In this document: one piece after another, positions 1-10,677 of the stretch | Position numbering within the stretch: position 1 is the stretch's first letter | Layout: each line of letters starts with the position of its first letter | NCBI GenBank assembly: GCA_027021085.1 | Contig: JALUVB010000159.1 | Span: forward strand, 1-10,677 | From: a bacterium | GTDB taxonomy: Bacteria; CAIJMQ01; JAADFP01 | Length of the DNA stretch: 10,677 nucleotides | Direction of reading: 5' to 3' | The notes under the pieces: model-generated | What the model was told of the DNA's origin: nothing | Database searches by the model: none | The model's input: the letters and a program-made list of their open reading frames with translations, nothing else | Translations under genes and position numbers: made by a program

Positions 1-845
1 AAATCTGTCACATCGTGGGCCGGGGTTACTTTCACTGCTCCGGTGCCAAATTCCGGGTCCACTCTCCTGTCACTGATTACAGGAATTTCCCGGTTTATCA
101 AAGGAAGAATTGCTTTCTTTCCTATCAGTCTTTTGTATCTGCCGTCTTCAGGATGTACTGCTACTGCGGTATCGCCCAGCATCGTTTCAGGCCGGGTGGT
201 GGCCACGGTTATTTCGCCTCCACCTACAATAGAGTAGTTTATGTAATAAAGAAAATCGTCACTTTCATCGTGTTCTACCTCTATGTCAGAGAGGGCGGTT
301 TCACAACGGGGGCACCAGTTGATAATGTAATTTTCCCGGTAGATGTAACCTTCCTTGTATAACTTTACAAAGGCCTCTTTTACTGCCCTGGCCCTTTTTT
401 CATCCAGGGTAAACGCCCACCTCTGCCAGTCACAGGAAGCGCCTAACCTTTTCAGTTGTTCTTTTATCCTGTTTTCATGCAGTCCTTTCCATTGCCAGAT
501 TCTTGCTATAAATTTGTCCCTGCCAATGTCTTCCTTTCTCAAGCCTTCCTTTGCCAGGTCTCTTTCCACTACGTTCTGGGTGGCAATACCCGCGTGGTCA
601 CACCCCGGTATCCAGAGGGAGGCATATCCCTGCATGCGCCTGAATCTTATCAGGATATCCTGGATAGTTTCGTCCAGGGCATGCCCCATGTGCAGGGAGC
701 CGGTGATATTGGGAGGAGGAATTATAATGCAGTAGGGTTTCTTGTCTTTTGCCGGCTTAACGTGAAATAAGTCAGCACTCTCCCACCTGTTTATCCATTT
801 CTCTTCTATGCCTGACCAGTTATAACGGTTGGGAAATTCTTTCAT
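1..845 (-). CDS. valS: Valyl-tRNA synthetase, N-terminal part (cut by window edge)
   Basis: This cytoplasmic class Ia aminoacyl-tRNA synthetase charges tRNA-Val with valine and edits mischarged threonine. The 281 visible residues are the N-terminal third of a protein usually near 880 residues; the remainder lies beyond the left edge. The class I signature is plain: PPPNITGSLHMGHA spans residues 43-56 with the HIGH-type box HMGH at 52-55, followed by GCDHAGIATQ at 81-90. A WCPRC cysteine pair at 177-181 and TTRPETMLGDTAV at 216-228 mark the start of the editing (CP1) domain; the latter distinguishes ValS/IleS/LeuS from other class I enzymes, and the HMGHA context favours ValS. The ATG at 845 is the only reasonable start because an in-frame TAA lies seven codons upstream. 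No Shine-Dalgarno precedes it, although a good promoter does. It lies 49 bp downstream of the 120-residue gene and may also receive readthrough from that operon. Confidence 0.97.
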   Translation of the reverse strand, partial: MKEFPNRYNWSGIEEKWINRWESADLFHVKPAKDKKPYCIIIPPPNITGSLHMGHALDETIQDILIRFRRMQGYASLWIPGCDHAGIATQNVVERDLAKEGLRKEDIGRDKFIARIWQWKGLHENRIKEQLKRLGASCDWQRWAFTLDEKRARAVKEAFVKLYKEGYIYRENYIINWCPRCETALSDIEVEHDESDDFLYYINYSIVGGGEITVATTRPETMLGDTAVAVHPEDGRYKRLIGKKAILPLINREIPVISDRRVDPEFGTGAVKVTPAHDVTD

Positions 846-859
846 AGATTTAGGGCTTA

Positions 860-888
860 TTTATACAGTAAACGTATGTAAAAGTCAA
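860..888 (-). promoter_or_regulatory. Sigma70-type promoter of valS with very short leader
   Basis: On the minus strand, TTGACT (888-883) and TATAAA (865-860) are separated by exactly 17 bp, matching the consensus at 5 of 6 positions each. It begins seven bases after the stop of the preceding gene. Transcription would start near 853, leaving only about 8 nt before the valS ATG, which has no ribosome site. The position of the start site is inferred from spacing. Confidence 0.7.
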
Positions 889-894
889 TCTGTA

Positions 895-1257
895 TCAGGT
901 TTCTCCTGTTTCTTTAAGTGATACGGCTTTCCCCGTGGTACTGCAGATTAACCTTCCTCCTATCACCTGGTACTTGCATTTGCTTAGATCCAAATCCTCG
1001 GGTAGAACGGTAATCCAGTCTATCCGGGGGATAGGAATCAGATACTCCTGGAGCACAGGGTCTTCTAAGGTTTCTATATTTGCCTGGTGTCTCTCCAGGA
1101 GCAGGTGTTTACCCCTGATATGAATAAATTCTTTTTCCATGGCCGGGGGGAAATCTTTCGGGAAGGGAATAATTTCTCCGATGAAAACCCGCCTGGGTTC
1201 CCTGGTAATACCACCCTTTGCCTCTTCCTCCAGTTTCAGCCTTACCTTTACTTTCAC
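895..1257 (-). CDS. Conserved-looking hypothetical protein, 120 aa
   Basis: I do not recognise this protein. It is a soluble, charged 120-residue chain with no signal peptide or membrane segment. It has a basic/acidic N-terminal strand-like stretch (residues 1-12), a proline-rich segment (PFPKDFPP, 31-38), a hydrophilic middle, and a C-terminal part with two cysteines (94 and 105), the second in GGRLICSTTGKAV. It has no clear metal-site spacing. It starts at GTG (1257). The ribosome site is the AGGAGGAG run formed by the arginine codons ending def, 8-10 nt upstream, so the two genes are closely coupled (4 bp between stop and start). The nearest ATG, overlapping the def stop, hits a stop within three codons. 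The tight coupling, good ribosome site and full-length open frame support it as real. Its place between def and valS suggests, but does not show, a translation-related or simply co-transcribed role. Confidence 0.75.
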   Translation of the reverse strand: MKVKVRLKLEEEAKGGITREPRRVFIGEIIPFPKDFPPAMEKEFIHIRGKHLLLERHQANIETLEDPVLQEYLIPIPRIDWITVLPEDLDLSKCKYQVIGGRLICSTTGKAVSLKETGET

Positions 1258-1261
1258 GGTC

Positions 1262-1747
1262 TCATCTCCTCCTGTTCAATTCTTTTAACAGTTTTTCCAG
1301 TTTTACTCTCTTGGCAGGCCTGGCATAATCAATAATCAGAACTCCTTCAAGATGGTCAATTTCATGCTGTATAACCCGGGATAGCAAGCCTTCAGCTTCT
1401 ACCCTGATTCTTTCTCCTTTTTCATTCAGTCCTTCCACTTCGATGAAGCTTGCCCGGGGAATGGGAAGGTAAATCTCAGGCAGGCTTAGACAGCCCTCTT
1501 CCATTAGCTCCTCGTCTTCTTTATGAACGATAACAGGATTTACCATTATCAGCTTCTTTTGGTCCACCTCTGCGACAAAAATTCTTTTCCCTATACCTAT
1601 CTGGGGAGCAGCCAGGCCAATGCCTTTACACGTGTACATTGTCTCCCACATGTCTTCTATTAAATCTCCTATATCATTGAATTCTTCTACTTCCGCTGCT
1701 TTCTCCCGTAAAATATAATCCGGGAAAATCTTTATCTCTCGCGCCAT
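1262..1747 (-). CDS. def: Peptide deformylase
   Basis: This enzyme removes the N-formyl group from the initiator methionine of nascent proteins at the ribosome exit, using a catalytic metal (usually Fe2+). All three family motifs are intact, numbering from the chosen start: GIGLAAPQ at 42-49 (catalytic Gln49), EGCLS at 84-88 (metal ligand Cys86) and QHEIDH at 127-132 (ligands His128 and His132, catalytic Glu129). The length of 161 residues is normal. Two in-frame starts exist, at 1753 and 1747. I prefer 1747 because GTGAGG lies 7 nt before it but only 1 nt before the other, and because 1747 gives a TAATG stop-start overlap with the upstream dehydrogenase. The choice changes only two residues. 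It is the third gene of the thiC operon, and its terminal arginine codons form the ribosome site of the next gene. Confidence 0.97.
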   Translation of the reverse strand: MAREIKIFPDYILREKAAEVEEFNDIGDLIEDMWETMYTCKGIGLAAPQIGIGKRIFVAEVDQKKLIMVNPVIVHKEDEELMEEGCLSLPEIYLPIPRASFIEVEGLNEKGERIRVEAEGLLSRVIQHEIDHLEGVLIIDYARPAKRVKLEKLLKELNRRR

Positions 1748-2871
1748 TACCATGCCTCACTTAACACTTCCCCCACGAGTGATTCTACACTGGCAGGCCG
1801 TGGATTTTTGAGCATGCTGCCTGAGAAGGAACTCTCTGCTATCCAGGAAAACTTAGCCTTCTCCACTCCCAGGTCTCGTAATCGCTGGTTTATTCCCAAT
1901 CTTTCCCTTAATTGCAGCAAAAAGTCGGGAAGCAGGGAAATGTCATCTTTGCCGGTAAAAATCCTGCTGACCCGCGCATACTTTTCAGAAGCATAAGAAA
2001 GATTATACCTTACTACAGGAGGCAAGAGAATTGCACATACCAACCCGTGGGGAAGGTCCCAGCAAGCTCCTATGGGATGGGCCAGGCCATGCACTGCTCC
2101 TAATCCTGCATTGGTCAGTGCCATGCCGCTGAGCAGGGAAGCATAACTTAAATCTTCCCGTGCATTTATGTCTTCCCCTTTTGTAACTGCTTTCTCCAGG
2201 CTCCTTATGGAAAGTTCCATGCCGTAAAGAACAAGGGAATCAGTTACTGGATTTGCCTCCCGGGACACATAGGATTCAATAAGCTGGGTAAGAGCATCCA
2301 TTCCGGCATAGGCAGTAAGTTTGGGGGGAAGGGTTAGGGTGAGAGCAGGGTCAATAATGGCTACAGCCGGAGTTAAAAAGGGAGCGCGCAGGCTTTTTTT
2401 ATAATTTTTTGCTGAATGTTTCAGTACCGCATTATTGGTTACTTCTGAACCTGTTCCCGAGGTGGTGGGGATGGCAATAAAAGGTTTGGCAGGCGGAGGC
2501 AAGGGTTTTCCTTTTAGATATGCTTCTACTTTCTCTCCTTTTCCCATTACCCCGCTTATCGCCTTGGCACAGTCCAGCACGCTGCCTCCTCCTATTCCTA
2601 TAATTACTTCTACCTTCTCTGCCTCTGCCAGTTTTTTGCCTTCTTCCACAATTTCTATGGTTGGTTCAGGGGGTACACCTGGGAAGTAAATTACCTGCAG
2701 TTCCTCCCGGGATAAAATGTCAGTGATTTTTCCTTTTAAGTTTTCCCGGAAATGCCTTCTCCCCCCTACCAACAACACTTTTTCCCCGAAGCGCTTCGCT
2801 TCCTTGCCTGCACTGGAAATACTTCCCGCTCCCATAATTATCCGGGTGGGGGTATGAAAATGCATTAACAT
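1747..2871 (-). CDS. Iron-containing alcohol dehydrogenase (group III) with altered metal ligand
   Basis: This is a predicted soluble NAD(P)-dependent dehydrogenase of the Fe-ADH superfamily (relatives include FucO, YqhD, butanol and 1,3-propanediol dehydrogenases); the substrate cannot be told. At 374 residues it has normal length. Seen motifs: GGGSVLDCAKAI at 94-105 for the nucleotide, TTSGTGSEVTN at 136-146, IDPAL at 173-177, MDALTQLIESY at 191-201, and AVHGLAHPIGACWDLPHG at 259-276. By spacing with FucO, the metal ligands would be Asp192, position 196, His261 and His275, with His265 the usual active-site histidine. Position 196 is Gln where the common motif DALTH has His; some family members share DALTQ. 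The ATG at 2871 lies 11 bp after the thiC stop; an ATG two codons later is also possible, and no strong ribosome site favours either. It overlaps def and is probably co-transcribed with thiC, although no thiamine role is known for this family. Confidence 0.93.
   Translation of the reverse strand: MLMHFHTPTRIIMGAGSISSAGKEAKRFGEKVLLVGGRRHFRENLKGKITDILSREELQVIYFPGVPPEPTIEIVEEGKKLAEAEKVEVIIGIGGGSVLDCAKAISGVMGKGEKVEAYLKGKPLPPPAKPFIAIPTTSGTGSEVTNNAVLKHSAKNYKKSLRAPFLTPAVAIIDPALTLTLPPKLTAYAGMDALTQLIESYVSREANPVTDSLVLYGMELSIRSLEKAVTKGEDINAREDLSYASLLSGMALTNAGLGAVHGLAHPIGACWDLPHGLVCAILLPPVVRYNLSYASEKYARVSRIFTGKDDISLLPDFLLQLRERLGINQRLRDLGVEKAKFSWIAESSFSGSMLKNPRPASVESLVGEVLSEAW
1755..1760 (-). promoter_or_regulatory. 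Ribosome binding site deciding the def start
   Basis: GTGAGG within the last codons of the upstream dehydrogenase sits 7 nt before the ATG at 1747 and only 1 nt before the ATG at 1753. This supports the shorter def product and translational coupling through the TAATG overlap. Confidence 0.55.
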
Positions 2872-2882
2872 ACTATGGTTTT

Positions 2883-4163
2883 TTACTTCTCGTTATTTAA
2901 CCAGTCCTCAACCAATTTTAAGGAACAGTACTCTCCGCACATACTGCAAATTCCCGGTCTCAATGGCCTGGATTCTTCCCACATTTCCCTGGCTTTTTCC
3001 GGGCACAGGGAAAGGGCAATTTCACTTTCCCATTCCCTCTTGTTCCTTTTGTCAGAAATTTCGTTGTCCAGGTCCCAGGCTTTTTTCATGCCCCTGGCAA
3101 TATCCCCGGCATGAGCCGCGATGCGTGCTGCGATAACTCCTTCCTTTACGTCTTCCGGCGTAGGAAGGCGAATATGTTCACCCGGGGTTACATAGCAAAG
3201 AAAGTCTGCCCCCTTCCAGCAGGCCAGGGCGCCTCCGATGGCACAGGCAATATGGTCGTATCCCAGCGCTGCATCCGTAACCAGAGGGCCCAGAACGTAA
3301 AAAGGAGCACCCTTGCATATTTTCTTTTCCATTATCACGTTTGCTTCTACATGGGAGAGGGGCACATGCCCAGGTCCCTCCACCATTACCTGCACCCCTT
3401 TTTCTCTTGCCCTCTCTACCAGTTCTCCGTGGGTAAGGAGTTCCTGTATCTGTAAAACGTCGGTGGAATCCCTGAGTGCCCCCGGCCTGAGAGCATCTCC
3501 CAGGGAGAGCACTACATCGTACTGGCTGGCAATATCCAGTAAATCATCAAAATTCTCATAAAGTGGGTTTTCTTTTCCTGTGGCTACCATCCAGGTAACA
3601 TGAAAAGCTCCTCCCCGGCTTACCACATACATCAATCTCTTATTGTTTTTGAACATTTCCAGTATTTTACGGTTAATCCCGCAGTGTACGGTGATAAAGT
3701 CAACACCGTCTCTGGCATGCTTTTCTATCACTTCAAAAATTTTGCCAGGCTTCATCTTTGCCAGGCTTCCCTCTTCCTGTATGCTTTCCACTGCTGCCTG
3801 ATATACCGGCACTGTTCCCAGGGGAAGGGAGCAATTCTCCAGAAACATCTTTCTTGTCTTATCCAGATCCCCGGCAGTGCTTAAATCCATGATAGTATCG
3901 GCTCCTGCCTCCACTGCAGAAATAAGCCTCTTCTTCTCCCACTCCAGGTCGCATATTTCGGGAGAGGTGCCCAGATTGGCATTTACCTTAACGCTTAGTC
4001 CCTTTCCAATACCTACGGGGTTGCCCCGCCGGTTGTTGAGAATAATAACCTCTCCTGAAAGAATATAGTTTTTCAGGGTATCCAGGGGTATTCCCTCTTC
4101 CCGGGCTATCCACTCTATCTCAGGAGTAAGCTCTCCCTTTCTTACCTTATCATATTGCGTCAT
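2883..4163 (-). CDS. thiC: Phosphomethylpyrimidine synthase ThiC (short type)
   Basis: This radical-SAM enzyme rearranges 5-aminoimidazole ribotide to 4-amino-5-hydroxymethyl-2-methylpyrimidine phosphate, the pyrimidine half of thiamine. Family features seen: NANLGTS at 61-67, a conserved barrel segment around 183-230, EGPGHVPL at 262-269, GYDHI at 301-305, YVTPGEHIRLPT at 324-335, and a C-terminal [4Fe-4S] motif with Cys406, Cys409 and Cys413. The spacing is CX2CX3C, one residue tighter than the CX2CX4C of E. coli ThiC. At 426 residues it lacks the N-terminal extension of proteobacterial and plant forms, so it is the short type. BzaF, the related enzyme making the 5-hydroxybenzimidazole ligand of cobalamin in anaerobes, is an alternative, but no cobalamin gene is nearby. 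The ATG at 4163 has no Shine-Dalgarno; a TAAAAT box sits six bases upstream, suggesting a leaderless message. No TPP riboswitch fits between it and the upstream terminator. Confidence 0.93.
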   Translation of the reverse strand: MTQYDKVRKGELTPEIEWIAREEGIPLDTLKNYILSGEVIILNNRRGNPVGIGKGLSVKVNANLGTSPEICDLEWEKKRLISAVEAGADTIMDLSTAGDLDKTRKMFLENCSLPLGTVPVYQAAVESIQEEGSLAKMKPGKIFEVIEKHARDGVDFITVHCGINRKILEMFKNNKRLMYVVSRGGAFHVTWMVATGKENPLYENFDDLLDIASQYDVVLSLGDALRPGALRDSTDVLQIQELLTHGELVERAREKGVQVMVEGPGHVPLSHVEANVIMEKKICKGAPFYVLGPLVTDAALGYDHIACAIGGALACWKGADFLCYVTPGEHIRLPTPEDVKEGVIAARIAAHAGDIARGMKKAWDLDNEISDKRNKREWESEIALSLCPEKAREMWEESRPLRPGICSMCGEYCSLKLVEDWLNNEK

Positions 4164-4169
4164 AGCTAT

Positions 4170-4175
4170 ATTTTA
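4170..4175 (-). promoter_or_regulatory. Possible -10 box for leaderless thiC mRNA
   Basis: TAAAAT on the minus strand (5 of 6 to TATAAT) ends exactly six bases before the thiC ATG, so the predicted first transcribed base is the A of that ATG. No convincing -35 hexamer is found 16-18 bp upstream, and the AT-rich context makes a chance match possible. The absence of any Shine-Dalgarno before thiC is the supporting point. Confidence 0.4.
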
Positions 4176-4212
4176 TCATTTTTTGTAAATTACTTCTTTT
4201 AGATTTCTGAAT

Positions 4213-4249
4213 AAAAAAAACGAGGAGGGATTTCCCCTCCCCGTTTTTT
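4213..4249 (-). terminator. Strong intrinsic terminator (bidirectional in form) after the pilin gene
   Basis: On the minus strand, CGGGGAGGG (4243-4235) pairs with CCCTCCTCG (4229-4221) in a 9-bp stem with one G-U pair and a 5-nt loop. Eight T follow (4220-4213), and six A precede it (4249-4244), so it would also work on the plus strand. It begins about 18-23 bp after the stop of the pseudopilin gene and insulates thiC downstream. Confidence 0.9.
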
Positions 4250-4266
4250 GTCAGCTCAGTTCAATA

Positions 4267-4875
4267 CTACGGAGTAGTAGTGGGCCAGGACTGAGTAGCT
4301 CCGCCTGACGAAACAAAGGTTGAAGTAGTCCAGGATTGACTGGGTACCCACTCCACGTGGCCGTCCAGGTAAAGGACGTTACCACCATCAGTGGAATGAT
4401 TGGCTCCTGTGCTAGAACAACCGTTATCCCAGGCTATAGGAGTATCTGCACTGTCAAGTTCGTTTACTTTGTAATCCTCACCGACGTTCTGCCCGCTTCC
4501 GTAACCTACGTACTCGTAGCTTACGAATGCTGTGTAGGTTTTATTTCTCTGAGCACCGGTGCTTGGATCAATGTCCGTAGGTTTTGCATCGGAATCAGAG
4601 GGACACCAGTACACTCCCGGGTCGGTCACATAGGTGGGATAGAGTCCCGGTCCGAAAGAGGTTCCCGGAGGGAATCTCTCATCCCAGTCTGTGGAGTACA
4701 TGTGGAGAGCTAACCCTACCTGCTTGAGGTTAGAGGTACATACCGCTCTTCTTGCCTGTTCCCTTGCCCTTGCCAGAGCAGGTAAGAGCATGGCGGCCAG
4801 AATAGCGATAATGGCTATAACCACTAACAGTTCGATGAGGGTAAACCCTCCAAACTTCTTGCGTAACAATTTCAT
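4267..4875 (-). CDS. Type II secretion/type IV pilus pseudopilin-like protein with H-X-DG motif
   Basis: This prepilin-like protein would be inserted in the inner membrane, cleaved by a prepilin peptidase and possibly assembled in a pilus-like fibre. From the chosen ATG it has 202 residues. A short basic leader ([10 protein letters not shown]) is followed by the cleavage site G10/F11, Glu at mature position 5, and a hydrophobic helix to about residue 34. The segment [20 protein letters not shown] (46-65) and the C-terminal [18 protein letters not shown] (159-176) match the prepilin-associated H-X9-DG domain family common in PVC-type and candidate-phylum bacteria; here the spacing is His160-X10-Asp171. 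Cys46, Cys91 and Cys153 may form disulfides. The tail is rich in Ser/Thr. A TTG nine codons upstream keeps the frame open, but the full AAAGGAGGTGA ribosome site lies 8 nt before the ATG, which fixes the start. It is monocistronic with its own promoter and terminator, and no assembly genes are nearby. Cargo or fibre partner is unknown. Confidence 0.92.
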
Positions 4876-4883
4876 AATCTTTT

Positions 4884-4894
4884 TCACCTCCTTT
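4884..4894 (-). promoter_or_regulatory. Full-consensus Shine-Dalgarno of the pseudopilin gene
   Basis: AAAGGAGGTGA on the minus strand is a perfect complement to the 16S rRNA tail, 8 nt before the ATG at 4875. It rules out the longer frame starting at TTG 4902, because that would place the site inside the coding region. Confidence 0.9.
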
Positions 4895-4902
4895 CTGTGC
4901 AA

Positions 4903-4916
4903 AAGCTTATAAGCTT
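4903..4916. promoter_or_regulatory. Perfect 14-bp palindrome at the pilin transcription start
   Basis: AAGCTTATAAGCTT is its own reverse complement. It overlaps the inner edge of the -10 box and covers the predicted transcription start (about 4908) of the pseudopilin gene. It could be an operator for a dimeric regulator or a small 5'-end stem; no function is shown. Confidence 0.4.
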
Positions 4917-4943
4917 TATAGCATATCCGATATTTCTTGTCAA
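4915..4943 (-). promoter_or_regulatory. Near-consensus sigma70 promoter of the pseudopilin gene
   Basis: On the minus strand, a perfect TTGACA (4943-4938) and TATAAA (4920-4915) are separated by 17 bp, with a TGC extended -10 directly before the -10 hexamer. The expected leader is about 33 nt and contains the strong ribosome site. This predicts high expression unless repressed. Confidence 0.88.
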
Positions 4944-4993
4944 GAGTAGCAAAACGGATTTTTCCCGAATTTCGGATAGCGCTGGAGAAGACT

Positions 4994-5056
4994 TTAGACC
5001 ATAGACTATAGACTGGGGGATAGTGAACAGTGAACAGTAAACAGTGAACAGTGAAT
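4994..5056 (+). repeat. Heptad array A1 (nine 7-bp units)
   Basis: Nine units run in unbroken 7-bp phase: three of the ATAGACT type, one GGGGGAT, then five of the AGTGAAC type (AGTGAAC, AGTAAAC, AGTGAAT variants). The change of unit type without loss of phase suggests that the period, not one unit, is preserved. Confidence 0.9.
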
Positions 5057-5144
5057 AGATGGGCGGTATCCTGGTATCTTGGTAATCCTGGTTTCTCGGT
5101 AAAGGGATAGATTTCGCAAGAATGACGATAAAACAGCCCTACCT

Positions 5145-5235
5145 GTCATGCCTGCGGAAGCAGGCATCCAGGCAAGTAGTTAGTAGCGGGTAGTGAGTAG
5201 ATAGGAAGGTGGATTCCCGCTTGCGCGGGAATGAC
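5145..5235. repeat. REPIN-like doublet A
   Basis: Two short palindromes face each other. The left is ATGCCTGC - GGAA - GCAGGCAT (5148-5167), flanked by GTC and CC. The right is ATTCCCGC - TTGC - GCGGGAAT (5213-5232), flanked by GG and GAC. Each makes an 8-bp stem with a 4-nt loop, and the pair as a whole is an imperfect inverted repeat with about 25-bp arms and a 41-bp spacer of GTAGTGA-type heptads. This is the layout of REPINs, which are moved by RAYT transposases in other bacteria; no RAYT is in this window. Confidence 0.7.
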
Positions 5236-5269
5236 GAAGCGGGAGGCAGCGGGTAGCGAGGGAGGCATT

Positions 5270-5304
5270 TTAGACTATAGACCATAGACTATAGACGTTA
5301 GACT
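5270..5304 (+). repeat. Heptad array A1b (five 7-bp units)
   Basis: Five in-phase units of the TTAGACT / ATAGACC / ATAGACG type directly follow composite copy A. They are the same unit family as at 4994-5014 and, reversed, at 8263-8311. Confidence 0.85.
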
Positions 5305-5337
5305 GGGAAAGGGAAGATACAGAAGGCAAAATCCAGA

Positions 5338-5385
5338 CGGGGTAATAGGCGCCCCGACATACGTCGGGACCGATGGACATCGGGG
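5338..5385. other. Cluster of overlapping hairpins inside the repeat region
   Basis: Three stems can form here: CGGGG (5338-5342) with CCCCG (5352-5356); CCCGAC (5353-5358) with GTCGGG (5363-5368) around loop ATAC; and CCGATG (5370-5375) with CATCGG (5378-5383). The first and second exclude each other, and an outer CCCCGA/TCGGGG pairing (5352-5357 with 5380-5385) is also possible. No T run follows on either strand, so it is not an obvious terminator. It is unlike the REP-type hairpins around it and has no copy in the right-hand repeat block. Confidence 0.4.
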
Positions 5386-5407
5386 ATAACTCGCAACTCA
5401 CAACTCT

Positions 5408-5498
5408 TTAGACTATAGACTGGGGGATAGTGAACAGTAAGCAGTGAACAGTGAATGGTGAATGGTGAGAAAGTAGTGAGTAGCGGGTAGTGAGTAGC
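5408..5498 (+). repeat. Heptad array A2 (thirteen 7-bp units)
   Basis: Thirteen units in strict 7-bp phase change type along the array: TTAGACT/ATAGACT, GGGGGAT, AGTGAAC and AGTAAGC, GGTGAAT, then GAGTAGC/GGGTAGT. It repeats the unit order of array A1, including the single GGGGGAT junction, and adds the GTAGTGA-type units found inside REPIN doublets. Confidence 0.9.
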
Positions 5499-5512
5499 GA
5501 AGGAAGGGGAAT

Positions 5513-5537
5513 AGATTCCTGCTTCCGCAGGAATGAC
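5513..5537. repeat. Single REP-like hairpin
   Basis: ATTCCTGC (5515-5522) pairs with GCAGGAAT (5527-5534) around loop TTCC, flanked by AG and GAC. It is the same family as the doublet hairpins, with the central pair changed from C-G to T-A on both sides. Its would-be partner (GGCATCCAGGAAATGAC near 5553-5569) is degenerate. Confidence 0.75.
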
Positions 5538-5570
5538 AGAAGAGAAACAGGAAGGCATCCAGGAAATGAC

Positions 5571-5591
5571 AGTAAATAGTAAACAGTAAGC
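5571..5591 (+). repeat. Short heptad array (three 7-bp units)
   Basis: AGTAAAT, AGTAAAC and AGTAAGC lie in tandem, ending 37 bp before the stop of the URO-D gene. They are the same unit types, in reverse, as at 8228-8255. Confidence 0.8.
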
Positions 5592-5628
5592 AGGGAATGG
5601 TGAGCTACACCAATTACCGGCAGCGAAT

Positions 5629-6711
5629 TTACCCAACCCCCAGGATATCTTTTTTTGCTTCCAGGTAGTAGAGGTAGTCTGCATAGCTTACGTCCGGGGG
5701 AACCCGGTGGTCAACGTGGGGGATATAGCCTCCTTCCTCCACCAGGGGCTTTAACCGCTGGAGTTCTTTTTTGATGTGTTCCCGTCCCTTGATGAGAGCC
5801 ATTTTATCCACGCCTCCCATGAGGAGGACGTTTTTGCCGAATTTCTCCCTGATTTTCACCGGGTCGCTTCCTCCCTGCACCTCCAGAGGAAACATGAGAT
5901 TTACCCCGGCCTCCAGCCATAAGGGGACCAGTTCGTTGATATTACCATCGCAATCGACCAGGACAATATCAATGCCGTGTTTTTTAAGAAGAGCGGTGAT
6001 TCTCTTGTAGCGGGGTACCATTAATTCCTCAAAGAGCTTTGGGGAAACCATGGGAGCGGTGCGGAAAGCCATGTCCTCCCAGAAGGCAGCATAATCTAAT
6101 TTTATTTCCTGCACGGCTCGTTCAATTAACTTGAGGTGAAATTCAGTGAGATACTCCATCATTTCCTCTATCCATTCCCGCTCATCGTAGAGAGCATAAG
6201 AAATCCCTTCAAAGCCCATCCAGTCTCTCAATCGTCCAAAAAGGGAGCCGCAGTTTATCCCCAGCGGATAGTCCCTGATTTCCCATTCTTCTTTGAGAAA
6301 ATCCCAGTTCTCGGGATAACGTGATGGATCATTAGCGTCCAGTTTCTTCCTGAATTCTTCCCAGCTTTTTCTGTCTTTTAAGGGAAACTCGATGAAATGG
6401 GGGATAGAAGATGTCCCGTCCTTCTTTATCTCGCATTTAACTCCCTGGGAATCTATCACCAGTTTATGTCTCTCATCTTCGTGGATTACCCGGGTCTCAA
6501 AAGGCGGAAAAAGTCCTACGTTAATTGGTACTATTCCTCGATAAGAGATACCCAGGTAAATTTCCACCTCCTTATGGGTAACGAGATGTGTGGGCATTCC
6601 CTGTCTGTGCCAGGTGAGAAAGGTTTCGTCCCAGTAGCCAAATTCTAAGTTGGGCACAGCATCAATTGACTGGTAGTGGAAAACCCTTAAAAATCTCTCC
6701 CGGGTATTCAT
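5629..6711 (-). CDS. Uroporphyrinogen decarboxylase (URO-D) superfamily protein, not HemE
   Basis: This is a 360-residue cytoplasmic protein of the URO-D/cobalamin-independent methyltransferase fold. It starts MNTRERFLRVFHYQ, the usual opening of the non-heme branch, followed by FGYWDETFLTWHRQGMP (24-40). It has SLFGRLRDWMGFEG at 156-169, VDCDGNINELVPLWLEAGVN at 252-271, LLMGGVDKMAL at 296-306 and GGYIPHVDHRVPPDVSYADY at 327-346. The HemE N-terminal RQAGRYLPEY-type motif is missing, so heme synthesis is unlikely. The H-x-C zinc site of MtaA/MtbA-type corrinoid methyltransferases appears as DCDG (253-256), with His332 and His335 near the C-terminus. A methyltransferase or another reaction on a bound substrate is possible; the substrate is unknown. 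The ATG at 6711 has AAGGAGGT (6728-6721) upstream, inside the last cutA codons, and starts 2 bp after the cutA stop. It is the last gene of the SDR-cutA operon and ends at the repeat mosaic, without an obvious terminator. Confidence 0.88.
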   Translation of the reverse strand: MNTRERFLRVFHYQSIDAVPNLEFGYWDETFLTWHRQGMPTHLVTHKEVEIYLGISYRGIVPINVGLFPPFETRVIHEDERHKLVIDSQGVKCEIKKDGTSSIPHFIEFPLKDRKSWEEFRKKLDANDPSRYPENWDFLKEEWEIRDYPLGINCGSLFGRLRDWMGFEGISYALYDEREWIEEMMEYLTEFHLKLIERAVQEIKLDYAAFWEDMAFRTAPMVSPKLFEELMVPRYKRITALLKKHGIDIVLVDCDGNINELVPLWLEAGVNLMFPLEVQGGSDPVKIREKFGKNVLLMGGVDKMALIKGREHIKKELQRLKPLVEEGGYIPHVDHRVPPDVSYADYLYYLEAKKDILGVG

Positions 6712-6713
6712 TA

Positions 6714-7082
6714 TTATTTTACCTCCTTAATGTTGGTGTGATTAGGGGAGACTGTTTTCCTGACCCATTCCAGGTAATGTCCATTTCCGCCTATCACAGG
6801 GATTGCTATTACTTCGGGTACTGTGTAGGAGTGGGTTTTCCTGACTGCTCTTATAATTTCCTCCAGGTTTGCCAGTGTGCTCTTCATAATCAAAAGTGTC
6901 TCCCTGGCAGATTCTTTTTTCCCTTCCCACCAGAAAAGAGAAGAAATCCCCGGGATAATATTGGCACAGGCGACTAACTTTTGCTTTAAGAGAAAATCCG
7001 CGATCTTTTCCGCCTCTTTTTCGTTAGAGGCGGTTACAAAAATTGCTATAATATCATTTTCTTGGTGGCCGGTTTCTGGCAA
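6714..7082 (-). CDS. cutA: CutA family protein (divalent-cation tolerance), TTG start
   Basis: CutA1 is a small trimeric protein, related in fold to PII signalling proteins, linked in E. coli to copper tolerance; its biochemical role is unsettled. The core is complete: IAIFVTASNEKEAEKIADFL, then LVACANIIPGISSLFWWEGK, ETLLIMKS, LEEIIRAVRKTHSYTVPEVIAIPV and YLEWV, all matching the family. No ATG in frame lies near the expected N-terminus. The frame is open further upstream, into the SDR gene, but AAGGAGG (7095-7089) sits 6 nt before a TTG at 7082, giving a 122-residue protein close to the usual 105-115. I take that TTG as the start. It lies 13 bp after the SDR stop, and its last codons contain the ribosome site of the URO-D gene, so the three genes form one operon. 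A weak start codon with a strong ribosome site suggests moderate expression. Confidence 0.9.
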   Translation of the reverse strand: MPETGHQENDIIAIFVTASNEKEAEKIADFLLKQKLVACANIIPGISSLFWWEGKKESARETLLIMKSTLANLEEIIRAVRKTHSYTVPEVIAIPVIGGNGHYLEWVRKTVSPNHTNIKEVK

Positions 7083-7088
7083 TTTTTG

Positions 7089-7095
7089 CCTCCTT
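7089..7095 (-). promoter_or_regulatory. Shine-Dalgarno fixing the TTG start of cutA
   Basis: AAGGAGG on the minus strand directly follows the SDR stop codon (7098-7096) and is 6 nt from the TTG at 7082. The longer in-frame ATG at 7127 lies inside the SDR gene and has no comparable site at the right distance. Confidence 0.8.
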
Positions 7096-7929
7096 CTACA
7101 CTCCGGAGTAGGCATTGAATCCGCCATCTATGGGGATAATTGTTCCGGTAACGAAGCGAGATGCTTCCGAAGCAAGCCATATACAAACTCCGATAAGGTC
7201 TTCCGGGTTGCCGAATCTTTCCATGGGGGTATGTTTTATTATTGATTCTCCCCGGGGAGTAAGCTTTCCCCGTGCGTCAAAAAGCAGGTAGCGGTTTTGC
7301 TTGGTAAGGAAAAACCCTGGTGCGATAGCGTTCACCCGCAGATTTTTGTTGTACTCCTGGGCCAGGTGCACTGCTAACCATTGAGTAAAATTTGATACTG
7401 CTGCTTTGGCTGCCGAATAGCCGGGGATGCGTGTAAGGGGGCGGAATGCGTTCATGGAGGATATATTTATGATGGAGCCGCCTTCTCGGTTTTTTACCAT
7501 TGCTTCGCCAAAAACCTGCGAGGGAAGAATAGCACCGGCAAAGAGATTAAGTGCTACCACCTTTTCCAGCGCGTTAAGCGGTAAAGCAAAGAAGCTTAAT
7601 TCTGAAGAGGTGGTAGCCTCCTTCATGTTTCCTCCTGCTGCATTAAGCAGGATATCCACCCGGCCGAAATCCTTTATGATTTCACCACGTGCCTTTTTTA
7701 AGGTTTCCTTTTCCAGCGCGTTCATGAAGTATCCTTTTGCTTTGATGCCTTCCTGGTTGAGCAAATCCACTGCCTCTGTGGTGGGGGCAATGTCTCCGAG
7801 AGCAATTTCTGCGCCCGCCTTGCCCAGCCCCCGGGCAATCGATAATCCTAACACGCCTGCTCCTCCGTTAATTACAGCTACTTTTCCCTGCAGGGAAAAA
7901 AGAGAATTAACCCACTGGTTACTTCCCAT
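7096..7929 (-). CDS. Short-chain dehydrogenase/reductase, D-mannonate oxidoreductase-like
   Basis: This 277-residue classical-type SDR has its Rossmann nucleotide loop at 21-28 (NGGAGVLG in place of TGxxxGxG), Asp46 after the second strand (favouring NAD over NADP), NAAGG at 96-100, Asn128 in the helix, the catalytic serine region INISSM at 154-159, Tyr171 and Lys175 (YSAAK), PG at 204-205, and a C-terminal IDGGFNAYSGV. The stretches PLTRIPGYSAAKAAVSNFTQ and the RFGNPEDLIG...TGTIIPIDGGF...SGV ending resemble the SDR-type D-mannonate oxidoreductases (B. subtilis YjmF/UxuB and the Thermotoga enzyme), which reduce fructuronate in hexuronate breakdown. That assignment is from remembered similarity. 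No other hexuronate gene is here, so a different sugar-acid or ketone substrate is possible. The ATG at 7929 has GGAGGAGG (7945-7938) 8 nt upstream. It is first in the operon with cutA and the URO-D gene; no strong promoter is visible before it. The weak TTGAGG/TAGAGT pair near 8010 is not convincing. Confidence 0.92.
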   Translation of the reverse strand: MGSNQWVNSLFSLQGKVAVINGGAGVLGLSIARGLGKAGAEIALGDIAPTTEAVDLLNQEGIKAKGYFMNALEKETLKKARGEIIKDFGRVDILLNAAGGNMKEATTSSELSFFALPLNALEKVVALNLFAGAILPSQVFGEAMVKNREGGSIINISSMNAFRPLTRIPGYSAAKAAVSNFTQWLAVHLAQEYNKNLRVNAIAPGFFLTKQNRYLLFDARGKLTPRGESIIKHTPMERFGNPEDLIGVCIWLASEASRFVTGTIIPIDGGFNAYSGV

Positions 7930-8068
7930 TTCTATCGCCTCCTCCGGGTCTTATGGTATTCCCGGTCAAGATGTGATCCAACACTCTAACCGTAAAATTC
8001 TCTCTACCTCAAGCGGGGAAGTTGCAAGTCCCCTCTCGCCGCTTCCTACTTCCGCTACCTCCCGCTTC

Positions 8069-8145
8069 GTCATTCCCGCGCAAGCGGGAATCCACCTCCC
8101 TATCTACTCACTACTTGCCTGGATACCTGCTTCCGCAGGTATGAC
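8069..8145. repeat. REPIN-like doublet B
   Basis: The facing hairpins are ATTCCCGC - GCAA - GCGGGAAT (8072-8091) and ATACCTGC - TTCC - GCAGGTAT (8123-8142), with flanks GTC/CC and GG/GAC as in doublet A and a spacer two heptads shorter. Relative to doublet A, the outer G-C pair of one stem is A-T here, with both sides changed together. Confidence 0.75.
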
Positions 8146-8220
8146 AGGTAGGGCTGGTTTATTGCCATTCTTCCGAATCCTATACCTCCTTCAAAAGCTA
8201 TCCCAGGATACCGCCCATCT

Positions 8221-8311
8221 GTTCACTGCTTACTGTTTACTATTTACTGCTTACTATCTCCCGGTCTAAAGTCTATGGTCTATAGTCTAAAGTCTATAAT
8301 CTAAACTCTAT
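8221..8311 (-). repeat. Heptad array B (thirteen 7-bp units)
   Basis: Thirteen units are in strict phase: GTTCACT, GCTTACT and GTTTACT types, one ATCTCCC junction, then GTCTATA-type units (AGTCTAT, GGTCTAT, AGTCTAA). It is the reverse-complement counterpart of arrays A1 and A2, with the same order and a single C-rich/G-rich junction unit. Confidence 0.9.
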
Positions 8312-8363
8312 ACCTAAGCACAGCTTGAGTATAAATCAATGGCAGAAATAGTTCAATAATATA

Positions 8364-8393
8364 TAGACAGAGGAAGTATATATGTGATAAAAT
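8364..8393 (+). promoter_or_regulatory. Probable promoter of the prs-rplY-pth operon
   Basis: TAGACA (8364-8369) and TAAAAT (8388-8393), each 5 of 6 to consensus, lie 18 bp apart. Transcription would start near 8400, just before the GGAGG ribosome site at 8402-8406. It begins about 50 bp after the end of heptad array B. Confidence 0.6.
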
Positions 8394-8412
8394 TCCAGCC
8401 CGGAGGTAAGTT

Positions 8413-9357
8413 ATGAACAAGGATAAGGATGGCATAAAAATTTTTACCGGAAATGCGCATAGAGAACTTGCAGAAGAGATAAGCAGGTATATAGATATAC
8501 CCTTGGGAGAGGCATTCGTGGGGACTTTTAGCGATGGGGAAACGCAGGTTAAAATCAACGAGAGCGTGCGTGGGAAGGAGATTTTCCTCATTCAGCCTAC
8601 CTGCCCTCCTGTTAACCATAACCTCATGGAGCTTCTTATCCTGCTGGACGCTTTCAGGCGGGCTTCGGCCAGAAAGATAACCGCGGTACTTCCTTACTAT
8701 GGATATGCGCGCCAGGATAGAAAGGTGCAGCCGCGTGTGCCTATAAGTTCCAAGCTTGTAGCAAATCTTATTACCCAGGCAGGAGCGGACCGGGTGCTGG
8801 TAATGGATTTGCACGCGGGCCAGATACAGGGTTTTTTTGACATACCGGTAGACCATCTCTATGCTGCCCCTTTACTTGTTGATTATATTAAGCAGAAAAA
8901 TCTTTCTGACCTTACCATAGTTGCTCCTGACCCGGGAGGGGTGGAAAGGGCACGGGCTTTTGCCAAAAGGCTGGAAGCTTCTCTGGCAATTGTGGATAAA
9001 AGGAGGCCAGAACCAAACGTGTCACAGGTTATGCATATTGTGGGAGAAATAAAAGGGAAGAATGTGTTCATAATAGATGACATGATAGATACGGGAGGAA
9101 CTATAATCCAGGCGGCAGAGACCATAAAGGCAAAAGGCGCCAGGGCGGTTTACTGCTGTGCTACGCATCCTGTTTTTAGCGGGAAGGCAGTAGAAAACCT
9201 GGAAAATTCCGTTTTTGAGGAGGTTGTGGTTACCAACAGTATTCCCAAGAAGAATAAAGAATACAAAAAGATAACTGTTCTGTCGATAGCTTCTCTTTTA
9301 GGGGAAGCAATACTTAGAGTGTATAAGGGGGCTTCGATAAGTTCGTTGTTTATTTAA
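8413..9357 (+). CDS. prs: Ribose-phosphate pyrophosphokinase (PRPP synthase)
   Basis: This enzyme transfers pyrophosphate from ATP to ribose 5-phosphate, making PRPP for purine, pyrimidine, histidine, tryptophan and NAD synthesis. At 314 residues it is typical of class I enzymes. Seen motifs: FSDGE at 39-43, the catalytic flexible-loop sequence YYGYARQDRK at 95-104, MDLHAGQIQGFFDIPVDHLYA at 131-151 (metal and ribose-phosphate contacts, His134), APDPGGVERA at 171-180, and the PRPP-binding loop IDDMIDTGGT at 221-230. The ATG at 8413 has GGAGG six bases upstream and a plausible promoter before it. The rplY start lies 12 bp after its stop, and prs-rplY-pth is a gene order seen in many bacteria, so it probably leads a nucleotide/translation operon. 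Nothing is missing from the active site. Confidence 0.98.
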   Translation: MNKDKDGIKIFTGNAHRELAEEISRYIDIPLGEAFVGTFSDGETQVKINESVRGKEIFLIQPTCPPVNHNLMELLILLDAFRRASARKITAVLPYYGYARQDRKVQPRVPISSKLVANLITQAGADRVLVMDLHAGQIQGFFDIPVDHLYAAPLLVDYIKQKNLSDLTIVAPDPGGVERARAFAKRLEASLAIVDKRRPEPNVSQVMHIVGEIKGKNVFIIDDMIDTGGTIIQAAETIKAKGARAVYCCATHPVFSGKAVENLENSVFEEVVVTNSIPKKNKEYKKITVLSIASLLGEAILRVYKGASISSLFI

Positions 9358-9369
9358 AGGAGACAAAAA

Positions 9370-10041
9370 ATGAAAAAGGTGGAACTTGAAGTAGAAGAGA
9401 GAGGAGAGGCAAAGGCAAAAAGTTTGAGAAGGGAGGGTTACATCCCGGGTATTCTTTATGGAGCCGGTAAAAAATCCATTCCTTTTAAGCTTCTTGCTCA
9501 CGAGTTTATCCATTTTATCCATTTTATTCACGGAGAGCAGGTAGTTGTAGAGCTCAAGTTTAAGGGAAAGAAAAAAAAGTACCTTTCAATATTAAAAGAC
9601 ACTCAGTATGATCCGGTAAAGGATACGATAATTCATCTGGATTTTCAGAGGGTGAATACTAAGAAACCCATAGTGATAGAAATACCTTTTGTTTTCGTAG
9701 GTGAAGCAAAGGGAGTGAAAGAAGGCGGTGTTCTGGAGGAGATTCACAGGAGTGTGGAGGTGGAGGCTCTAATTCAGGATATACCGGAGCATATAGAAGT
9801 GGACGTGAGTGGACTATCCATAGGCCATTCGATCCATATAAAAGATTTACAACTTCCCGAAAACATCAAGATTCTTACTCACCCAGAGGAAACTATTGTT
9901 ACCGTACTGGCACCCCGGGTAATGGAAGAGGAGATTAAGCCTGTATTGCCGGAAGAGGTGGAGGTAGCGGGCAAAGAGAAGGAAGAAGAGGAAGAGGAAG
10001 GGGAAGAGAAGGAAGAAAAGAAGCGAGAGGAATCCGAGTAA
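9370..10041 (+). CDS. rplY: Ribosomal protein L25 / general stress protein Ctc (TL5 type)
   Basis: This 5S rRNA-binding protein of the large subunit is the long two-domain CTC/TL5 form, at 223 residues. The N-terminal L25 domain (about 1-97) has SLRREGYIPGILYG at 18-31 and HLDFQRVN at 89-96. The C-terminal TL5 domain (about 98-185) has PIVIEIPFVFVGEAKGVKEGGVLEE and the DVSGLSIGHSIHIKDLQLPE strand-turn region. From about 186 the chain ends in a low-complexity Glu/Lys tail encoded by an almost pure purine tract (9958-10034). An oddity is FIH repeated three times at residues 46-54, from three 9-bp repeats, where family members have one helix turn. The AAAGGAG ribosome site is 7 nt before the ATG. 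It is co-transcribed with prs and pth. Confidence 0.96.
   Translation: MKKVELEVEERGEAKAKSLRREGYIPGILYGAGKKSIPFKLLAHEFIHFIHFIHGEQVVVELKFKGKKKKYLSILKDTQYDPVKDTIIHLDFQRVNTKKPIVIEIPFVFVGEAKGVKEGGVLEEIHRSVEVEALIQDIPEHIEVDVSGLSIGHSIHIKDLQLPENIKILTHPEETIVTVLAPRVMEEEIKPVLPEEVEVAGKEKEEEEEEGEEKEEKKREESE
9505..9531 (+). repeat. Nine-bp triplication inside rplY
   Basis: TTTATCCAT occurs twice in tandem and is followed by TTTATTCAC. The period is in frame and adds FIH units at residues 46-54 of L25. This looks like recent replication-slippage expansion of one to two units. Confidence 0.85.
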
Positions 10042-10058
10042 AGTTCCCGGAGTGAAGT

Positions 10059-10643
10059 ATGGTATCTCCCTGTTGTATAGTAGGCCTTGGTAACCCGGGA
10101 AAAGAGTATGAAGGTACCCGGCATAACGTGGGTAAGAAGTTAGTAAAAAGCCTCTCCCGCAAGTGGGATATACGTATAGATAGAAGGGGCCGGACATATC
10201 GGTTTGGCAAAGGGGAATCGGAGGGGCGAGCGGTATATCTGTGTCTCCCCTCCGTGTTTATGAATGAAAGTGGGAAGGCGGTACAGGGAATAATGCATCG
10301 TTTCAAGTTGTCCCTGGATGCTTTGCTGGTAGTCCACGATGATGCAGATATTCCCTTCGGGAAGATAAAATTGGTTTACTCTTCTACTTCAGGAGGACAT
10401 AGGGGAGTAGCTTCTATTATAGAGCATGTGGGGAGCCATGAGTTTGCCCGGCTTAAGATAGGGATTGGCAGAGAAGAGAGCAAAGATTTAGTCGAATACG
10501 TGCTGGAGAGGTTCACCGCAGAGGAGAAGAAAGTAATAAATAAGCTGTTCTTACTGTGTGAGAAAGCTATTGCTGTCTGGATAGATGAGGGTATAGAAAA
10601 AGCTATGAGTCTTTATAATAACAGGAGGATTCTGACATGTTGA
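10059..10643 (+). CDS. pth: Peptidyl-tRNA hydrolase
   Basis: This enzyme releases tRNA from peptidyl-tRNAs that drop off the ribosome. At 194 residues it is of normal length. Motifs: CIVGLGNPGKEYEGTRHNVG at 6-25, with Asn12 and the catalytic His22; FMNESGKAV at 67-75, with Asn69; VHDDADIPFGKIKL at 92-105, with the aspartate that activates the histidine; and SGGHRGVASI at 111-120. The last has Arg115 where E. coli Pth has a conserved Asn114 in GHNG; I believe GHRG occurs in other lineages. The ATG at 10059 follows GGAG by 6 nt and lies 17 bp after rplY. The final codons hold an AGGAGG serving the next, overlapping gene. Confidence 0.97.
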   Translation: MVSPCCIVGLGNPGKEYEGTRHNVGKKLVKSLSRKWDIRIDRRGRTYRFGKGESEGRAVYLCLPSVFMNESGKAVQGIMHRFKLSLDALLVVHDDADIPFGKIKLVYSSTSGGHRGVASIIEHVGSHEFARLKIGIGREESKDLVEYVLERFTAEEKKVINKLFLLCEKAIAVWIDEGIEKAMSLYNNRRILTC

Positions 10644-10677
10644 ACTTTTCTCTTTACTCAGCTGTGCTTGCTATATT
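10637..10677 (+). CDS. Start of a further gene overlapping pth (cut by window edge)
   Basis: An ATG at 10637 lies 8 nt after AGGAGG (10623-10628) and overlaps the last 7 bases of pth in another frame. The 13 visible residues, MLNFSLYSAVLAI, are hydrophobic, fitting the first membrane helix of a membrane protein, but far too little is seen to name it. It would be the fourth gene of the prs operon. Confidence 0.6.
   Translation, partial: MLNFSLYSAVLAI

Follow-up and report, generated by a model that had tools for sequence, protein, structure and literature searches.

Inverted repeat blocks around an SDR-cutA-URO-D operon as probable members of an intergenic repeat-island family in a Caldisericota bacterium

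Mirror-image blocks around a three-gene operon

Two blocks of repeated DNA, each nearly the mirror image of the other, stand on either side of a small operon in a Caldisericota bacterium, and their arrangement raises the question of whether they are bound to the genes that they enclose. The window analysed here (10,677 nt; contig C159 in our numbering of this genome) carries the SDR-cutA-URO-D operon on the reverse strand at 5629–7929, as delimited by Pfam and by collinearity with a sister genome. Pfam upheld the gene identities proposed earlier, namely a short-chain dehydrogenase (SDR), CutA1, and URO-D. Island A (4989–5603, forward strand) was delimited by repeat searches and a module scan; it lies between a pilin-like gene and the URO-D gene and ends a little before the stop codon of the latter, which lies at 5629. 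Island B, an inverted copy (8052–8312, reverse strand), occupies the divergent gap between the SDR gene and prs. The first-pass annotation of the window had offered two explanations: a dispersed repeat family, or a cassette with homologous arms, whether invertible or transferred. The former is right in outline. With a probability of about 0.78, islands A and B both belong to a large family of intergenic repeat islands at the level of the genus. Each island is a mosaic of CGTC-tagged REP hairpins, often as a head-head pair, and short tandem heptad and octad arrays in a preferred directed order; islands lie between genes in either orientation, so that inverted copies can come to surround a three-gene operon with no special relation to it.

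A repeat search of the window returned three inverted arm pairs in register, 2.8–3.1 kb apart: 4989–5077 with 8200–8288 (89 nt, 87%), 5103–5186 with 8104–8187 (84 nt, 88%), and 5190–5252 with 8052–8114 (63 nt, 97%). This search and pairwise alignment both bear out the earlier description of the blocks as mirror-image composites with the same parts in the same order; heptad arrays, an 18-bp core, and a near-identical hairpin pair are common to 4989–5252 and the reverse complement of 8052–8288. The core, AGATGGGCGGTATCCTGG, is identical, as had been claimed, at 5057–5074 (+) in island A and 8203–8220 (−) in island B. The segment of island A closest to island B (5139–5252, +) had been described as alike at all but 4 of 105 positions; the four mismatches stand, while the length is corrected to 100 aligned positions, 96 of them matching, plus one 14-nt gap equal to exactly two heptads. 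Two of the four mismatches make up a compensatory G-C to A-T change in a hairpin stem. Stretches of full identity between the arms are short. The left block had been taken to end at 5252; further mosaic of the same modules in fact runs to about 5600. In a chance control, the loose octad pattern was the sole module to turn up in dinucleotide-block shuffles of sampled loci of this genome, heptads and hairpins being absent; the resemblance between A and B is far beyond chance.

Read from left to right on the forward strand, island A opens with A-type heptads (TAGACTA; 4989–5014), followed by N-type heptads (AGTGAAC; 5022–5056), both recovered as tandem repeats and by module. The 18-bp core starts the octad stretch, an array of GGTATCCT-like units (5064–5102) that is shortened in island B. 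Next come the M segment (GCAAGAATGAC; 5103–5138), defined by an alignment of 28 copies, and a first CGTC-type REP hairpin (5144–5170), recognized by pattern match and folding, with tag TGTC, stem ATGCCTGC, and tail CCA. K-type heptads (GTAGTGA; 5175–5203), of which island B has two units fewer, separate it from a second hairpin on the reverse strand (5210–5236; module scan and folding), which opposes the first to form a head-head pair. The rest of the island (5271–5603, +) contains further A, L, N, and K heptads, a CCCGA...TCGGG palindrome, and a third REP at 5514–5539. This second palindrome type (5352–5385 in the window) occurs in many islands of both species. Island B holds the counterparts: a REP with tag CGTC at 8068–8094 (+), corresponding to 5210–5236; a REP with tag TGTC at 8120–8146 (−), corresponding to 5144–5170 and carrying the compensatory A-T stem pair; and, as tandem repeats, N-type heptads at 8219–8255 (−) and A-type heptads at 8264–8312 (−).

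Dispersal and composition of the islands

When 4981–5260 was used as a query against the genome (1.93 Mb, 307 contigs), 86 pieces were returned from about 45 places, in both orientations. Thirty-nine of these stretches with their flanks, together with the window, gave 46 islands, all picked by similarity to island A. They are confined to intergenic DNA: predicted genes overlap 44 of 9,930 repeat bases, as compared with about 60% coding for the same loci, itself a low estimate, since two genes of the window, cutA and the pilin-like gene, escaped the custom gene caller. Islands are found between co-directional, divergent, and convergent genes. Neighbouring islands on one contig (C159, C53, C75, C77, C293, C287, C273) are inverted in five cases and direct in five, a small count read by eye; a second inverted pair lies 1.6 kb apart on C53 (43794–44145 and 45751–45949). 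Since neighbours are inverted about as often as they are direct, the bracketing of the operon by A and B needs no special cause. Three islands (L157, L167, L173) extend to the last base of their contigs, and these repeats are therefore probably responsible in part for the fragmentation of the assembly. A literature search found no published account of intergenic repeats in Caldisericota.

The island hairpins are CGTC-tagged REPs. Members of this superfamily, which includes dRS3 of Neisseria, have an unpaired CGTC or TGTC tag, an 8–9 bp stem beginning with AT, a loop of 4–5 nt, and a CCA tail, and no dedicated transposase was found for them (Di Nocera et al., 2013; PMC3733652). The tag, the AT stem start, the short loop, the CCA tail, and stem covariation are all shared by the hairpins described here, as are the prevalence of head-head pairs and the lack of a known dedicated transposase. 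The pattern TGTCATNCC-N10-GGNATCCA has 68 matches in this genome and 84 in the sister genome, with none for the reversed-pattern control, and the free stem letter N pairs as GC, TA, or AT in 32 of 34 copies from this genome. REPs lying within 150 bp of one another form six head-head pairs and one head-tail pair in the sample from this genome, and six head-head, three tail-tail, and one head-tail in the sister. Of 60 genomes scanned with the same pattern, 14 contain it; the majority of these belong to other classes, and some have dozens of copies (controls, zero). In contrast to the published set, the present hairpins belong to Caldisericota, outside its five listed phyla, and are embedded in heptad and octad arrays (PMC3733652). 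BIMEs and the RAYT-linked GTAG REPs likewise consist of opposed palindrome pairs in intergenic clusters (PMC3733652); here, however, the tag is CGTC, and Y1_Tnp genes are, with the exception of one case, not flanked by REPs.

The remaining modules comprise tandem heptads (TAGACTA, AGTGAAC, GTAGTGA, and others), the octad GGTATCCT, and the short M segment, and they are joined in a preferred direction: A-heptads, N-heptads, octads, M segment, REP. Relative to expectations from permutations of module order and orientation, the islands of this genome contain 45 A-N transitions (7.9 expected), 32 N-octad (5.0), 18 octad-M (1.9), and 12 M-REP (1.6), with the reverse transition N-A seen once; these figures are somewhat inflated, the module patterns having been written after inspection of the sequences and the islands chosen by similarity. 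The dominant transition in the sister, whose contigs were not chosen by similarity to island A, is A-K (22 versus 5.0 expected). The A- and N-heptads, the only two searched for genome-wide, are essentially confined to this genus. The A-heptad has one or two matches in each of three genomes of the same class, and a distant 6.8-Mb genome (G058) has N-like arrays along with control hits. A spread of heptads across phyla was accordingly rejected: of these elements, the REP alone is widespread.

Comparable arrangements have been described elsewhere. In the Neisseria intergenic mosaic elements (NIMEs), dRS3 is paired with RS elements of 30–160 bp (PMC3898611). Like NIMEs, the islands are intergenic clusters of a CGTC palindrome interleaved with other repeat families, and they are Neisseria-type intergenic mosaic elements, here built on heptad arrays. 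They differ from NIMEs (PMC3898611) in their partners, here tandem heptads and octads, and no Piv/IS110-type gene was found. Intergenic heptamer arrays are also known from Xanthomonas, Nostoc, and Beggiatoaceae; they too are tandem 7-mers and largely intergenic, and in Xanthomonas a comparison of two species places most of them between corresponding genes, with extensive variation in length and sequence (PMC4692102; PMC4679880). The islands resemble the Xanthomonas arrays, as so described, in keeping their position between genes while their content varies. The unit sequences differ, however, and the available text records no counterpart to several heptad types set in fixed order with REPs (PMC4692102; PMC4679880).

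Island positions shared with a sister species

The nearest relative with this SDR is represented by a Caldisericota metagenome-assembled contig, JAADFP010000021.1 (L058, evidently identical with contig C21 of the sister genome, G001), from a genome that is 86% complete. Window segments 357–5014, 5626–7960, and 8314–10677 match it at 82–87% identity, without change of order or orientation. SDR, cutA, and URO-D are all present, in the same order and relation. Both gaps flanking the operon contain the same general repeat types in different composition. Across the fetched sister contigs, all eight loci of this genome with two aligned flanks are collinear, with nine gaps in total. Modules are found in the sister at 7 of 8 orthologous gaps, as compared with 29 of all 90 sister gaps that reach 150 bp in length (binomial probability about 0.002, calculated by hand), and the contents of the orthologous gaps differ; none of the eight is a precise empty site. 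Island positions are shared between the two species and their contents replaced. As far as can be seen from this genome and its one close relative, the operon does not flip. Many copies in mixed orientation and an unchanged operon in the one close relative found are the combination under which the first-pass annotation was prepared to regard the bracketing as coincidence.

Several further features of the sister contigs may be recorded. The SDR gene of the sister (L058:8001–8832; G001:C21:16329–17160) is read in two frames, with tblastn pieces at 8001–8396 and 8392–8832, the result of either a frameshift or an assembly error. Islands L174, L182, and L183 hold heptads that are rare or absent in the sample from this genome, for example telomere-like TTTAGGG/TTTGAGT runs, as well as AAGTGAGT octads that are likewise rare or absent. 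At one shared gap, the locus in this genome (L161:1817–3451) is about 1.3 kb longer than that in the sister (L183:15858–16176), and the extra sequence contains a candidate nucleotidyltransferase-type gene beside the island.

Origin and turnover of the islands

The special relation between A and B that the first-pass annotation perceived survives in one respect, although not in the form of a cassette: the 63-nt tail segments are by far each other's best match in the genome (97% over 63 nt, the next best copy reaching 87% over 52), and sequence has therefore probably been copied locally between these neighbours. Twenty-two matches between islands reach 60 bp and 92% identity; the three longest (185, 157, and 123 bp) all join linked islands, and linked pairs make up 1.7% of all island pairs. 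The linkage test is small; two of the three pairs lie on single contigs, and the third, island A with an island on C160, is linked through sister synteny only and was chosen as A's best match. On sister contig L174, the places to which C160 and the window map are separated by about 0.9 kb. Island A is a patchwork: C160 offers the closest match to its left part (96%), and island B to its right part. The islands may be altered by slippage of heptads, as the two-heptad difference in length between A and B suggests, and by the transfer of sequence from one island to another close by, whether through local copying or through gene conversion. The REP hairpins would originally have spread as non-autonomous elements by means of some enzyme.

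Inverted repeat pairs are known substrates for inversion in general. Recombination between the arms, which at 63–89 nt and 87–97% could in principle take place, would flip the SDR-cutA-URO-D unit and change its relation to prs and the upstream genes. This has very little to recommend it: the sister has the same orientation even though both arms are replaced there, all nine gaps at the eight two-flank loci are collinear, dozens of equivalent arms lie elsewhere in the genome, and identical stretches between the arms are short. No recombinase is present among the Pfam-scanned genes of the window, and none is apparent among its other reading frames. An invertible cassette was rejected on sister synteny and genome-wide dispersal. 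That the operon was acquired whole, bounded by the islands, is hardly credible; among the loci fetched with SDR, the scope within which operon distribution was checked, all three genes occur together in the sister only, yet the operon and both neighbouring blocks are collinear there at similar identity (83% as compared with 86–87%), and many unrelated genes have comparable islands beside them. The operon is very probably neither a flipping nor a transferred cassette. It is also quite unlikely that selection maintains the islands as structured RNAs through which adjacent genes are controlled. The REP hairpins are stable, their stems covary, and none of 200 shuffles folds as well as the REP pair read on its reverse strand (z −4.5); however, the heptad portion shows no folding advantage over shuffled sequence (z +1.4), orthologous gaps have had their content replaced between the species, the islands use all gene arrangements, and Rfam has no match in the islands, its one hit in the window being weak, sub-threshold, and elsewhere (E 0.52). 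A putative effect of the islands on transcription or mRNA stability is possible.

A further alternative treats the whole composite, from heptads to REP, as a miniature mobile element served by a transposase in trans, with A and B as independent insertions. The composite does recur in the same directed order in dozens of gaps. Proteins with a Y1_Tnp domain occur in 38 of 60 genomes, including two matches in this one, of which one, at L136:229–1075 (contig C45), has a CGTC REP about 0.6 kb away; C45 also carries N heptads at 172–192. Against this, the 28-copy alignment reveals no constant outer ends, the orthologous gaps include no precise empty site, a CGTC REP is found in the fetched stretch at 1 of 20 Y1_Tnp loci of REP-bearing genomes, that one being the locus in this genome, and the sister, with its 84 REPs and 86% completeness, has no Y1_Tnp match. 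Mobilization by a RAYT/REPtron was rejected on the last two counts, and an IS110/Piv-type recombinase, an idea derived from a Neisseria phage that targets dRS3, on the absence of any match in this or the sister genome. Insertion of complete units is accordingly doubtful. Also doubtful is a form of intergenic array assembly, independent of any known transposase, in which short repeat units would be actively strung together in a direction and sequence peculiar to the species (A-N-octad-M-REP here, mainly A-K in the sister) and copied by preference into gaps close by.

The reading of A and B as members of a dispersed family of intergenic islands extends the CGTC REPs to Caldisericota, where they stand in ordered mosaics with several heptad families. 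It also counsels caution, as inverted repeats around operons are to be expected by chance in genomes of this kind. The means by which CGTC REPs and intergenic heptads disperse, no enzyme for this being known, is an old question that has now become accessible to resequencing of closely related strains. The comparison of the two species suggests a turnover of content, with exchange of sequence between neighbours, in islands whose positions are kept.
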